Origin: Octadecabacter sp. B2R22
GTDB taxonomy: Bacteria > Pseudomonadota > Alphaproteobacteria > Rhodobacterales > Rhodobacteraceae
DNA length: 64,000 bases
Direction: 5' to 3'
Assembly (NCBI RefSeq): GCF_018861045.1
Contig: NZ_JAHKQJ010000010.1
Location: forward strand, 620,001-684,000
The notes beneath the pieces are model-generated. The model was not told the DNA's origin and did not search any database. It saw nothing but the letters and a program-made list of their open reading frames with translations. A program made the position numbers and the translations under genes. Shown one piece after another: positions 59,407-63,928 of the stretch (its first letter is position 1; the number at the start of each line of letters is the position of its first letter).

Positions 59407-59991
59407 GTGCAGACCGACCTGAAAATCCTTGTTGTCGAAGATGACCCCCAAAAGGCGCGCGATATAATCGACGCGTTGACGGATGGCGGTTGGACAAATC
59501 TGTCGGTCATTGGCTCGGCGGGGGCGCTTGAGCGGACGATTACGACGCAGGATCCTGATATCATTCTGATCGACCTTGCTAATCCGGATCGTGACACGCT
59601 TGAACACCTCGGTCTTGTGTCCAATGCCCGCAACCGTCCGGTCGCCATGTTTGTGGATCGCACCGATGATGCGATGACGCAGGCGGCGATCTCTGCGGGG
59701 GTGAGTGCCTATGTTGTGAACGGCCTGATGAAGGACCGTATCAAGCCCGTGCTGGAAACCGCGATTGCCCGCTTTGGCATGTTCGCGAAGATGCAATCGG
59801 AACTGGACGCGGCGAAACAGGCGCTGACAGATCGTAAGACCATTGATCGCGCCAAAGGGCTGTTGATCCGCGCGCGAAATATTTCTGAAGACGAAGCCTA
59901 TAACTTGCTGCGCAAGACGGCGATGGATCAGGGACGCAAGGTCATTGATGTCGCGACGGCTTTGGTCACGGCGGCGGAGCTGCTGCAATGA
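59407..59991 (+). CDS. nasT: NasT-type ANTAR RNA-binding antiterminator
   Basis: A 194-residue protein: pseudo-receiver domain (about 1-120; VVEDDPQKARDI, and LIDLANPDRDTLEHL with Asp56) followed by a C-terminal ANTAR domain (about 130-190; IDRAKGLLIRARNISEDEAYNLLRK as separate helices). ANTAR proteins bind pairs of hexaloop RNA hairpins and stop transcription termination. NasT is held off by NasS until nitrate or nitrite binds. A GTG start is used. It overlaps nasS by four bases. Confidence 0.92.
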   Translation: MQTDLKILVVEDDPQKARDIIDALTDGGWTNLSVIGSAGALERTITTQDPDIILIDLANPDRDTLEHLGLVSNARNRPVAMFVDRTDDAMTQAAISAGVSAYVVNGLMKDRIKPVLETAIARFGMFAKMQSELDAAKQALTDRKTIDRAKGLLIRARNISEDEAYNLLRKTAMDQGRKVIDVATALVTAAELLQ

Positions 59992-61166
59992 AGTCTATTC
60001 AGGTGCAATGCGGATACCTCCCGTTAGTGGACAGCGCTCCTTTGATTATTGCTAAGGAGCTGAAGTTTGCCGCGCAAGAAGGGCTGGATCTGACGCTGCA
60101 AAAGCAACCATCTTGGTCGGCACTGCGGGATCGATTGGCGTTCGGCCATATCGATTTTGCACATATGTTGTCACCCATGCCGATCGCCATGTCGTTGGGG
60201 TTGGGGGGGCTGTCCAACCGCATTGATGCGCTGATGGTCATGTCGGTCAATGGAACGGTTATTGGCGTGTCATCCGAGCTGAACCAAAAGATGTCAGGCG
60301 CGGGGTGGGAAAATACGTTTGATAATCCGAAAGCCACGTCAAAGGCGCTTTTGGCTGTGTCGGACCGTCCCTTGCGGATCGGGGTTCCGTTTCCGTTTTC
60401 CATGCACCGCATGTTGCTGGAAACATGGTTGACCCAAGACCCCGTGTTCTCACCCGACCGAATTGAGATCGTGACAGTTCCGCCACCACAGATGGCGCAG
60501 GCGGTCACGGAGGGCGCGCTAGACGTGTTCTGCGTTGGTGAGCCGTGGGGCTCGGTGGCTTTGCAACACAGCGACGCGTCGTTGATCTTACCGGGGTCGA
60601 GCATTTGGGAATTCGCACCCGAAAAGGTTCTTGGCGTGCGCCACGAGTGGGCTGAGGAAAATCCGACGGCATGCCGTGCGATGATCCGCGCGCTTTATAA
60701 AGCGGCACGTTGGCTGAACTTGCCGGAAAACACGCCGCTTGCTGTTGAGATCCTGGCGCGCAGCCAACACCTCGACCTGCCTGATCACGCAATTGACCCT
60801 GCTTTGACGGGCCGTATCGCTACACGTTCGGGGCACGACGCCAAACCTACAGCAGGTTTTTTGAACTTCCACGACAAAGCCGCCAACTTTCCGTGGCGCA
60901 GTCAGGCAAGCTGGATTTCAGATGTGATTTCGCGCTGGCATGGTCTTGATCGCGATGCATCGCGCAAAATAGCCCGCGCGTGTTTTCGCAGTGATCTTTA
61001 TCGTGAGGCCTTGGCCCCGTTGGGGGTAAACCTGCCAGGCGCGTCAGAGAAGGTTGAGGGCGCGATGGCGACATCGGTGGCCGTGGCCTCAACCATGGGG
61101 CAGATGATTCTTGGGCCTGACAGATTTTTTAGCGGCGCGACATTCGACTTTGAGGGAGAGGAGTAG
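59988..61166 (+). CDS. nasS: NasS-type nitrate/nitrite sensor (cytosolic NrtA-like)
   Basis: A 392-residue member of the NrtA/CmpA binding-protein family that lacks a signal peptide (starts MKSIQVQCGYLPLVDSAPLI), marking it as the cytosolic sensor NasS. PPPQMAQAVTEG and CVGEPWG are the ligand-domain blocks. Ligand-free NasS sequesters NasT; nitrate or nitrite releases it. Co-translated with nasT and directly upstream of the target leader. A tight single system can be read here. Confidence 0.9.
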   Translation: MKSIQVQCGYLPLVDSAPLIIAKELKFAAQEGLDLTLQKQPSWSALRDRLAFGHIDFAHMLSPMPIAMSLGLGGLSNRIDALMVMSVNGTVIGVSSELNQKMSGAGWENTFDNPKATSKALLAVSDRPLRIGVPFPFSMHRMLLETWLTQDPVFSPDRIEIVTVPPPQMAQAVTEGALDVFCVGEPWGSVALQHSDASLILPGSSIWEFAPEKVLGVRHEWAEENPTACRAMIRALYKAARWLNLPENTPLAVEILARSQHLDLPDHAIDPALTGRIATRSGHDAKPTAGFLNFHDKAANFPWRSQASWISDVISRWHGLDRDASRKIARACFRSDLYREALAPLGVNLPGASEKVEGAMATSVAVASTMGQMILGPDRFFSGATFDFEGEE

Positions 61167-61190
61167 GTTAAAAATTAAGCACTTTCTGCA

Positions 61191-61226
61191 TCGCGGCAAT
61201 TTGCGCTGCATATGCGAAGGCCGCGA
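61191..61226 (+). repeat. Long-loop hairpin after nasS
   Basis: TCGCGGC and GCCGCGA (7 bp perfect) flank a 22-base spacer that itself can form a wobble-paired inner stem (TTTGCG with TGCGAA). It lacks a T-run. It could be the 5' part of the nrt leader or the nasS 3' end. Confidence 0.45.
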
Positions 61227-61263
61227 GTCGTAATCAGGGCCTGAATTGGTCAATATCAAGTTA

Positions 61264-61277
61264 GGGCAACGATGCCC
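61264..61277 (+). ncRNA. ANTAR target hairpin P1
   Basis: GGGC-AACGAT-GCCC: a 4-bp stem with a 6-base loop bearing A at position 1 and G at position 4, the ANTAR recognition signature. Confidence 0.75.
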
Positions 61278-61282
61278 GTTCC

Positions 61283-61302
61283 GGCCGACACTGATGTCAG
61301 CC
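61283..61302 (+). ncRNA. ANTAR target hairpin P2
   Basis: GGC-C-GAC closes on GTC-A-GCC (one C/A mismatch) with hexaloop ACTGAT, again A1 and G4. Five bases separate it from P1, giving the dual-hairpin ANTAR target. Confidence 0.75.
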
Positions 61303-61316
61303 ACCGAAATAAGAGC

Positions 61317-61379
61317 AAAGCCGCTCGATTGTGCATGCCTCCTCCCTTCCTCCCGCATGCGTCAATCGTGCGGTTTTTT
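61317..61379 (+). terminator. NasT-controlled leader terminator with anti-SD loop
   Basis: Left arm CCGC-t-CGATTG-t-GCATGC pairs with GCATGC-gt-CAATCG-t-GCGG, 16 bp in three blocks, then six T. It lies 34 bases before the nrtA start, so it must be overcome for expression. The 16-base loop (61339-61354) is CTCCTCCC followed by TTCCTCCC, complementary to Shine-Dalgarno sequences. Confidence 0.88.
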
Positions 61380-61412
61380 GCGTTTCAAGAAAACAAACGG
61401 GGACGATAAAAT

Positions 61413-62780
61413 ATGAACACTTTCAAATGGCTCATCGCCACGACAGCTTTGTGTGCCAGCCCAGCGATGGCAGACATGCTGGACCTTGAGAAAGACGAGC
61501 TCACTTTTGGCTTCATTAAGTTGACAGACATGGCGCCGCTCGCTGTGGCGTATGAGAACGGTTATTTTGAGGACGAAGGTCTGTTTGTGACACTCGAAGC
61601 ACAAGCAAACTGGAAAGTTCTGCTGGACGGCGTGATTGATGGCCAACTTGACGGTGCACACATGCTGGCAGGTCAGCCTTTGGCCGCAACAATCGGCTAC
61701 GGCACCGAGGCACACATCATCACACCGTTCTCAATGGATTTGAACGGTAACGCGATCACAGTGTCCAACGACATCTGGGAACAAATGCGCCCTCACGTTC
61801 CATTGATGGAAGATGGTCGTCCGCAGCACCCGATCAGCGCGAGTTCCCTTGCTCCGGTTGTTGAAGAATACCAAGACCAAGGTATCCCGTTCAACATGGG
61901 CATGGTTTTTCCTGTTTCCACACACAACTACGAACTGCGTTACTGGTTGGCCGCTGGCGGTATCGAACCTGGCTATTACTCACCTGACGACGTGACGGGC
62001 CAGATCGGTGCGGACGTTTTCCTCAGCGTGACGCCTCCTCCACAGATGCCATCCACAATGGAAGCCGGCACGATCTTTGGTTACTGCGTGGGTGAACCAT
62101 GGAACCAGCAAGCTGTGTTCAAAGGCATCGGTGTGCCTGTCGTCACTGACTATGAACTGTGGCGCAACAACCCTGAAAAGGTCTTTGGTATCTCTGCTGA
62201 ATTTGCAGAAGAGAACCCAAACACTACGATCGCACTGACCAAAGCGTTGATCCGTGCGGCGATCTGGTTGGATGAAAACGATAACGCCAATCGTGAAGAA
62301 GCGGTCGAAATCCTGTCACGTTCTGAATACGTTGGCGCGGACTACGAAGTTATCGCGAACTCCATGACTGGTACGTTTGAGTACGAAAAAGGCGACGTTC
62401 GTGACGTTCCAGACTTCAACGTGTTCTTCCGCTACAACGCGACGTACCCGTTCTACTCTGATGCGATCTGGTATCTGAGCCAAATGCGCCGTTGGGGCCA
62501 AATCGCCGAGCCACAGACAGATGAATGGTTCATCGAAACTGCGCAGTCTGTTTACCGCCCAGACATCTACCTTGAGGCTGCACGCCTTCTTGTGGACGAC
62601 GGCATGGCCAATGAAGCGGACTTCCCATGGGACAGCGACGGTTTCAAAGACCCAACACCAGCTGAAGATGTGATTGACGGCATTCCATACGATGGCCGCG
62701 CACCAAACGCATACCTCGACAGCCTGCCGATCGGCTTGAAGGGTGACCAAATCATCTCTGGGTCCGAAATCCAGAACTAA
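61413..62780 (+). CDS. nrtA: Nitrate ABC transporter substrate-binding protein
   Basis: A 455-residue NrtA/CmpA-family binding protein with a signal peptide (1-21, SPAMA-DML) and ligand-domain blocks [14 protein letters not shown] and CVGEPWNQQ. It captures nitrate (or nitrite) in the periplasm for the permease encoded next. It is related to NasS but exported. Expression depends on read-through of the leader terminator. The ATG at 61413 has GGGGACGATAAAAT upstream. Confidence 0.9.
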
Positions 62781-62854: not shown

Positions 62855-63928
62855 ATGACCGCCATTGACCCAGATACACTCCAGGCAGAAGCTCGCCGCG
62901 CCCGCCGCTTTACGCGGATCAACAAAGCCGACGCATGGTTTCAGGTTTTGGGGCTGGCGTGGGTGACGCCGATCCTGAAAGCCGCAGCGGGGGACAACCC
63001 GCGAGCGCAAATGTCCGAAATCTGGCGCCTGCTTGGTGTACCGCTTTTGGCGATTTTTCTTTTTATCGGCGCGTGGGCGACCTTGGCCCCGAAAGTTCAA
63101 ACATCGCTGGGTGCGATCCCTGGTCCTGTTCAGGTTTGGGAACAAGCGGTTAACCTCAATGCTGACGCAGTTCGCGAACGCGAAAAAGAAGCCGCATTCT
63201 ACGAACGCCAAGATGTACGCAACGCGGAACTGATCGCAAACGGCAACGCCGATGACGTGCGCCAGCGGGTCTATACAGGTAAGCCGACATACTATCAGCA
63301 AATCTGGACTTCGATCAAAACGGTATTCTTCGGGTTCTTGATCGGTTCCCTTATCGCAATTCCTGTTGGTATTTTGGCAGGGCTTTCGGCGACTGCGAAT
63401 GCTGCGATCAACCCGATCATTCAAATCTTTAAGCCCGTCAGTCCGCTGGCATGGTTGCCGATTGTCACCATGGTTGTGTCAGCTGTTTACGCCACCAACG
63501 ACGGCATGTTTTCCAAGTCGTTCCTTGTGTCGGCGATTACCGTGACGCTGTGTTCGTTGTGGCCGACACTGATCAACACATCACTGGGTGTTGCGTCCAT
63601 CGACAAAGATCTGGTGAGCGTTTCCAAAGTTCTGAAAATGAGCACTTATTCAAAGATCACCAAGCTGGTTTTGCCATCTGCATTGCCCTTGATCTTTACA
63701 GGTCTGCGCTTGTCCCTAGGTGTGGGCTGGATGGTTCTGATCGCGGCGGAAATGCTGGCACAGAACCCGGGCCTTGGGAAATTCGTATGGGATGAATTCC
63801 AGAACGGCTCCTCCCAGTCTCTCGCTAAAATCATGGTTGCAGTCTTCACCATCGGTATCATCGGGTTCTTGCTCGACCGTGTGATGTACGCCCTACAATC
63901 CATGTTCACCTTCACTGAGAACCGGTAA
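62855..63928 (+). CDS. nrtB: Nitrate ABC transporter permease
   Basis: A 357-residue permease with a long cytosolic N-terminus (about 1-60) and six or so helices; the EAA-type loop lies late in the protein (VSVSKVLKMSTYSKITKLVLPSALPL region). It forms the membrane channel with NrtC/NrtD ATPases. The N-terminal extension and a charged stretch near 100-140 are longer than in cyanobacterial NrtB (about 270). Confidence 0.88.
   Translation: MTAIDPDTLQAEARRARRFTRINKADAWFQVLGLAWVTPILKAAAGDNPRAQMSEIWRLLGVPLLAIFLFIGAWATLAPKVQTSLGAIPGPVQVWEQAVNLNADAVREREKEAAFYERQDVRNAELIANGNADDVRQRVYTGKPTYYQQIWTSIKTVFFGFLIGSLIAIPVGILAGLSATANAAINPIIQIFKPVSPLAWLPIVTMVVSAVYATNDGMFSKSFLVSAITVTLCSLWPTLINTSLGVASIDKDLVSVSKVLKMSTYSKITKLVLPSALPLIFTGLRLSLGVGWMVLIAAEMLAQNPGLGKFVWDEFQNGSSQSLAKIMVAVFTIGIIGFLLDRVMYALQSMFTFTENR

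Follow-up and report, generated by a model that had tools for sequence, protein, structure and literature searches.

The locus considered here raises the question of why the loop of an intrinsic terminator, placed just ahead of genes for nitrate uptake, should read as anti-Shine-Dalgarno sequence, and whether the RNA that such a terminator releases might have a second job. The locus lies in a 64-kb stretch of DNA, hereafter the window (C3:620001-684000 of the 3.3-Mb genome G000), and a homologue search with NrtA places the relatives of its nas genes in the Rhodobacteraceae. A preliminary description had taken the region for a nas (NasT/NasS) attenuator leader, and we agree, given the adjoining ANTAR gene, the P1/P2 hexaloops and the terminator (Table 1). 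The nasS and nasT genes overlap by 4 nt, and the intergenic leader between nasS and nrtA is 246 nt long. The TGC-rich element upstream of the leader is perhaps a promoter or operator element. A TGC-rich inverted repeat, approximately CTGCATTGCGGCA-N6-TGCGGCAATGCAG in some relatives, stands ahead of many nas leaders (L008, L016, L019, L030), and 56 of the 84 leaders compared below match a half-site of the element, a raw count made with a loose regular expression and no chance control. Separately, GAGGGAGAGGAG at the end of nasS (61152-61163), within the nasTS transcript, complements the terminator loop imperfectly.

Table 1. Features of the nas locus, in window coordinates, and of the octamer array on another contig of the same genome.
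Feature	Position	Strand	Basis
nasT, response-regulator-like ANTAR antiterminator	59407..59991	+	Pfam ANTAR E 3.8e-20, Response_reg E 5.9e-9
nasS, nitrate sensor of NMT1 type that partners NasT	59988..61166	+	Pfam NMT1_2 E 6.7e-64
TGC-rich element TCTGCATCGCGGCAATTTGCGCTGCATATGCG upstream of leader, putative promoter or operator	61185..61216	.	position
ANTAR P1 hairpin GGGC[AACGAT]GCCC (A1, G4, closing C:G)	61264..61277	+	hexaloop comparison across leaders
Intervening hairpin GGCCGAC[ACTGAT]GTCAGCC, alternatively an A1/G4 hexaloop	61283..61302	+	leader comparison
ANTAR P2 hairpin GAGC[AAAGCC]GCTC	61313..61326	+	overlaps 5' base of terminator (inside its 5' arm)
Intrinsic terminator hairpin, stem and loop	61317..61373	+	fold prediction
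Terminator loop CTCCTCCCTTCCTCCC, 16 nt; conserved module CTCCTCCC, anti-Shine-Dalgarno type	61339..61354	+	sequence, folds, leader comparison
Terminator T run TTTTTT; expected 3' end of released leader RNA	61374..61379	+	sequence
Putative nrtA ribosome-binding-site core, GGGG of CGGGGACG	61399..61402	+	CGGGGACG at 61398-61405; spacing
nrtA, nitrate ABC transporter substrate-binding protein, gene under control	61413..62780	+	Pfam NMT1_2 E 6.9e-94; name from context
nrtB, nitrate ABC transporter permease	62855..63928	+	Pfam BPD_transp_1 E 4.6e-21; name from context
Cuckoo/CcsR-type array, L098-L101	G000:C7:268693-268976	-	CTCCTCCC hairpins just downstream of DUF1127 gene

A1/G4 hexaloops are recognised by the ANTAR proteins NasR, where the closing pair is C:G, and EutV (PMC7496416, PMC3369931), and in Bradyrhizobium nitrate dissociates NasS from NasT, which then antiterminates (PMC6759348). 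From this homology we infer that NasT would bind the present leader and that the leader would respond to nitrate. The P2 hairpin, which resembles the published AGCAANGRRGCUY element (PMC3369931), adjoins the terminator in all 78 leaders searched with a loose P2 pattern (six of the 84 were omitted by hand), and could be aligned for 59 of them. In 68 of 81 leaders a P1-like hairpin with an A1/G4 hexaloop has its 3' end 20-50 nt ahead of P2, against a mean of 4.8 and a maximum of 10 in mononucleotide shuffles. In the window, P1 and P2 are ∼35 nt apart, the linkers of Enterococcus faecalis eut targets being 5-12 nt (PMC7496416, PMC3369931), and a proximal A1/G4 hairpin lies between them, 10 nt from P2. 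Such a proximal hairpin recurs in 17 of 81 leaders, where shuffled sequences give 2.7 on average and at most 8, and P1, the middle hairpin and P2 could possibly form a three-hexaloop NasT site. One relative, G105, has two P2-terminator leaders (C9:308141 and 533576), and a further operon may therefore be under NasT control in that genome.

The proposal that tandem pyrimidine octamers make up the whole terminator loop was borne out: when 61240-61385 is folded, the loop stands unpaired at the apex in the minimum free energy and the centroid structure alike (−51.1 kcal/mol; z −4.32 relative to 200 shuffled sequences), and its mean unpaired probability is 1.0 over six assumed 5' ends. Its octamer type had been likened to that of CcsR/cuckoo hairpin loops, and it is indeed the CUCCUCCC octamer of the CcsR/cuckoo and AbcR RNAs. 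Exposure of the loop on the terminated leader is likewise predicted, with one refinement. When P2 is forced, the upper hairpin with its loop is still present in the fold (−63.1 vs −70.2 kcal/mol). Because the upper hairpin is thus predicted to survive P2 formation, the read-through mRNA would be expected to show the loop as well. No Rfam family reached its gathering score across the window, and the leader region 60900-61500 gave no match to the CcsR1 or ar14 models up to E 10. An Rfam match to mir-2813 in the leader (E 0.17) was taken for a chance match to a long hairpin.

We compared the loop across 84 leaders, comprising the best 80 of 589 NrtA relatives in named genomes, three close relatives and the window itself; 83 could be scored, L065 being without such a terminator. 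The motif CCTCC occupies the apical loop in 40 of the 83, and 32 of these 40 carry the exact octamer CTCCTCCC; it is absent from the other 43, 28 of which have loops of only 3-5 nt. About half of the scored nas leaders have the motif, and the others do not. Since 43 of 83 leaders manage without the motif, it is dispensable for attenuation.

Where the motif is present, the loop is kept while the stem varies, the reverse of the pattern that the preliminary description had named as refuting its proposal. Once duplicates are removed there are 36 motif-bearing hairpins, whose five closing pairs are of 23 kinds. The pair that closes the loop is paired in all 36, although its identity changes (CG 24, AT 4, GC 4, TA 3, TG 1). 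With the last copy of CCTCC as the anchor, the loop columns adjacent to it are T in 33/35, C in 34/34 and C in 28/33. Given conserved loop columns and compensated stem changes, we conclude that the conserved word is CTCCTCCC and that the stem evolves by compensation.

The tandem arrangement is real in the window, and it is local. A second octamer is otherwise seen only in the nearest relative, G008, whose leader has the identical 16-nt loop and is 96% identical to the window over 201 nt. Other leaders of the genus have single copies, for example ACCTCCTCCC and ATCTCCTCCC, and in L010, L011 and L047 the word is lengthened in other ways. By protein search, 13 of 19 genomes in the genus have nrtA, whereas a comparison of 40 relatives at the DNA level had matched three of the 18 same-genus genomes besides the window's own. 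Among the 13, nine carry CCTCC in the loop, on inner stems of two types (GCATGC and CACGG): tandem in the window's genome and G008, single in G003, G004, G016, G009, G017, G005 and G010. The four that do not score are L195, which reads ACTTTCTCCC, L196 and L200, which have short loops, and L199, which the terminator finder missed and in which CCTCC is visible by eye in the tip. Nine of these 13 leaders (all except those of G000, G003, G004 and G008) lie outside the 84-leader set.

Leaders were also collected by a pattern for P2 and the terminator base that leaves the loop free. Of 394 family genomes, 50 contained a match, 51 matches in all, the window's own genome being left out by one differing letter in its terminator base. 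When the matches were folded, CCTCC was found in 18 of 22 loops of at least 7 nt and in 2 of 29 shorter ones. Eight of the 51 matches are identical to named loci, so that this is no independent sample; with those eight removed the figures are 15 of 18 and 1 of 25. Long loops and CCTCC occur together. Under strict filters, a model of P2 plus terminator, which with only four base pairs is mostly a sequence profile, matched, in a search aimed beyond the family, three of 142 class genomes, two of them members of the family. In the single match outside the family (L167) the tip reads CGCG-TTT-CGCG by eye.

The octamer as such is not enriched, the genome holding 17+13 = 30 matches to CTCCTCCC and 14+17 = 31 to a reversed control. 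What is distinctive is its position. A fold-based terminator finder, which recovers 79 of the 80 named leaders (36 of them with CCTCC), reported 431 terminator-like hairpins in 464 kb of the window's genome including the window, and the single CCTCC loop among them is that of the nas leader. CCTCC loops were absent from 370 such hairpins in 400 kb of the same genome outside the window and from 220 in G262, a relative that bears the motif, over 400 kb of its DNA, many of these background hairpins probably not being genuine terminators. As a control, the finder did detect the terminator of the genome's own octamer array, with a loop of CCTCCC. Because the leaders are mutually related, a Fisher value for leaders against background overstates significance.

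The history of the trait was read from an NrtA tree built by a quick method, in which 23 of 79 inner branches are open and the midpoint root serves for drawing only. The CCTCC trait requires 11 changes over 81 rows, whereas 200 label shuffles gave a mean of 27.2 and a minimum of 20. With the midpoint root, the part of the tree holding the window has the motif in 20 of 26 rows (one unscored) and the remainder in 18 of 56. The loop motif is a dispensable trait that has been repeatedly gained or lost.

Cuckoo/CcsR loci usually consist of several hairpins in a row. In the window's genome four more copies of CTCCTCCC lie within 300 bp on the minus strand of C7, 3' of a DUF1127 gene (Pfam E 9.1e-10), and this array matches the Rfam models CcsR1 and ar14 below their gathering scores. 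By sequence, the C7 array looks like a cuckoo/CIN1 locus. If the 30 octamers of the genome are ranked by the stability of the enclosing hairpin, the nas leader and the four array copies take the first five places (−34.0 to −24.1 kcal/mol); L106 (−22.7 kcal/mol, with only two pairs adjoining the loop) and L109 (−20.4 kcal/mol) come next. Arrays, here defined by spacing alone as two octamers 30-60 nt apart, with the DUF1127 neighbour established for the window's genome only, were present among the matches listed in 39 of 40 genomes; the reversed pattern was present, on the same terms, in five (G262, G187, G105, G203 and G128). The 40 comprised 37 genomes hand-picked from the 50 of the loop-free survey (17 motif-bearing, 20 motif-less) together with G000, G003 and G008. 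Arrays gave no signal of co-occurrence with the nas loop, appearing among the matches listed in all 20 motif-bearing genomes and in 19 of the 20 without the motif. Array length varies greatly: G399 (C17:36115-36717) has at least 13 two-octamer matches, several in near-identical units, and G291, G349 and G073 vary likewise, which suggests that octamer arrays undergo rapid tandem duplication.

A loop kept on a changing stem suggests an additional role, as a small regulatory RNA, for the RNA made in the off state. We favour, at about even confidence, a bifunctional leader, that is, a NasT-gated attenuator whose terminated product presents a trans-acting anti-Shine-Dalgarno loop. Atop the terminator there would be a conserved second part, an upper hairpin of ∼12-13 pairs capped by CUCCUCCC. 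When nitrate is absent, NasS would hold NasT, the terminator would form and a leader of ∼100-210 nt, ending at about 61379, would be released; its exposed loop could then pair with purine-rich ribosome-binding sites of the GGGAGGAG type on other mRNAs and repress them in trans, perhaps the same pool that is served by cuckoo/CcsR RNAs. When nitrate is present, NasT would stabilise P1/P2, P2 would take the terminator base and nrtA would be transcribed; the upper hairpin and its loop could persist in the read-through nrtA mRNA. The stability of the terminated RNA, its repression in trans, the identity of its targets and any protein partner are what we infer rather than observe. A fuller version, which we advance tentatively and with confidence somewhat under even, sees a nitrate-gated RNA that joins a NasT attenuator in cis to an anti-Shine-Dalgarno small RNA in trans bearing the cuckoo/CcsR octamer: lack of nitrate under nitrogen limitation would directly lower translation of other uptake or catabolic genes, and the loop would be maintained by selection in many Rhodobacteraceae, strengthened in this lineage by tandem duplication.

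Candidate targets can be named. A full GGGAGGAG stands at ribosome-site spacing before open reading frames of at least 128 aa at five of 30 sites (L083, L097, L103, L105 and L109); at L086 the 52-aa TTG frame is probably no gene. The five candidate sites would be common to the array RNAs and not special to the nas leader. A further suggestion, that the loop might sequester other anti-Shine-Dalgarno RNAs, fails, because those RNAs carry the same pyrimidine sequence and pairing with the nas loop is excluded. Competition with them for targets or for a shared protein is possible.

The alternative that survives best, though we consider it unlikely, is that the CUCCUCCC hairpin is bound by a protein (a DUF1127 protein of the CcaF1 type, Hfq or another) that stabilises, processes or titrates the leader, pairing with ribosome sites being secondary. 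CcaF1, a DUF1127 protein that binds RNA, takes part in the maturation of CcsR RNAs, which are processed from a transcript shared with a DUF1127 gene (PMC10253847), and in the window's own genome a DUF1127 gene precedes hairpins that carry this loop. Moreover, conservation extends to the hairpin as well as the loop, and the hairpin is predicted in both conformers of the leader. Its stem sequences nevertheless vary freely, and recognition of CUCCUCCC by CcaF1 or Hfq is not stated in the part of PMC10253847 drawn on here.

Somewhat less probable again is control in cis, in which pairing of the loop, to the ribosome site of nrtA or elsewhere in the same leader, would lower translation of leaky read-through. 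The geometry would suit this, as the nrtA ribosome site follows the anti-Shine-Dalgarno loop at a distance of 45 nt and the duplex between the window's loop and its downstream region is predicted at −8.6 kcal/mol. Over 38 motif-bearing leaders, pairing with the leader's own downstream region (−6.72 kcal/mol) is stronger than with shuffled copies (−5.72), but it does not exceed that with swapped regions (−6.89) or with those of motif-less leaders (−7.14), a comparison that is a weak test because every ribosome site is partly complementary to the loop. Upstream, the same 38 leaders gave −6.93 with their own sequence, −6.81 when swapped and −8.08 when shuffled. Nor does GGGAGG occur on either side of the loop in any of the 38, and downstream AGGA is found in 23/38 motif-bearing and 20/43 motif-less leaders (Fisher p 0.27).

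We think it improbable that the loop is simply a device for folding and termination, an unstructured pyrimidine cap favourable to the timing with which the terminator forms relative to P2. Motif loops are indeed pyrimidine-rich and unstructured, and about half of the leaders use other, mostly short, loops. However, the other terminator-like hairpins described above (0/370 and 0/220) do not use the motif, 18 of 22 long loops share one word, and individual letters (T at −1, C at +5) are conserved beyond what pyrimidine richness alone would give. Least credible by far is shared ancestry without constraint, with too little time for the loop to have changed: the trait does cluster on the tree (11 changes vs 27.2 shuffled), but the inner stem pairs beside the loop have changed with compensation (23 closing stems among 36 hairpins), which largely refutes it.

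If the bifunctional leader that we favour is real, a classic nitrate attenuator doubles as a small RNA gene in a widespread marine bacterial family, and nitrate sensing is tied to the anti-Shine-Dalgarno RNA network, giving that network an input of known signal. A loop that is conserved on a stem that is not would then be a sign of hidden small RNA function to seek in other attenuators.

Each component of this proposal is of a known kind, namely an ANTAR attenuator, an anti-Shine-Dalgarno hairpin small RNA and an attenuator-derived small RNA; their combination is unreported among the matches listed. In the literature, the matches listed included no small RNA from a nas leader and no CUCCUCCC loop in one, and a term search of the main text of small RNA papers on relatives returned nothing about nas leaders. 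As an attenuator, the leader resembles those controlled by NasT, NasR and EutV in its two A1/G4 hexaloops, the overlap of P2 with the terminator and the adjoining ANTAR gene (PMC7496416, PMC3369931). Its distal P1 lies ∼35 nt from P2, further than in the E. faecalis eut targets, with an extra hairpin in between, and a conserved anti-Shine-Dalgarno cap is not mentioned in the parts of those papers used here.

In its loop, the leader is like the CcsR/cuckoo RNAs (CIN1; Rfam RF02791 CcsR1, 'Conserved CCUCCUCCC motif stress-induced RNA 1'), which are (C)CUCCUCCC-capped hairpins in Rhodobacteraceae. It is unlike them in being a single hairpin, the terminator of an ANTAR attenuator between nasS and nrtA, with no DUF1127 neighbour and no Rfam match. 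AbcR1/2 (ar15) and NfeR1 of Sinorhizobium share the CUCCUCCC-type loop, NfeR1 having three identical anti-Shine-Dalgarno motifs; they are intergenic small RNA genes and not attenuator leaders, and nitrate antitermination is not described for them in the part of PMC8844928 that we cite. The AbcR CUCCUCCC loop (aSD1) represses its target at the ribosome site; loop mutants lose repression, and compensatory changes in the target restore regulation (PMC8844928).

Precedents also exist for attenuators whose products act elsewhere. In Listeria, SreA, Rli51 and Rli55 are attenuator or riboswitch products, or ANTAR-element RNA, that are also trans-acting (PMC8079631, PMC11394854). These, compared by description only, belong to other organisms and elements, and Rli55 acts by binding EutV, not through an anti-Shine-Dalgarno loop. 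A further precedent is UpsM, the dcw-leader small RNA of Rhodobacteraceae, which arises from intrinsic termination in a 5' leader and for which a function in trans is implied (PMC5089854). The main text of that paper uses neither 'CCUCC' nor 'anti-Shine', and the operon is different; the nas leader, from the same family, nevertheless resembles UpsM in that an intrinsic terminator is predicted within a 5' leader. It is because AbcR RNAs silence through such a loop, and because UpsM is made by termination within a leader, that we favour a terminated nas leader acting in trans.
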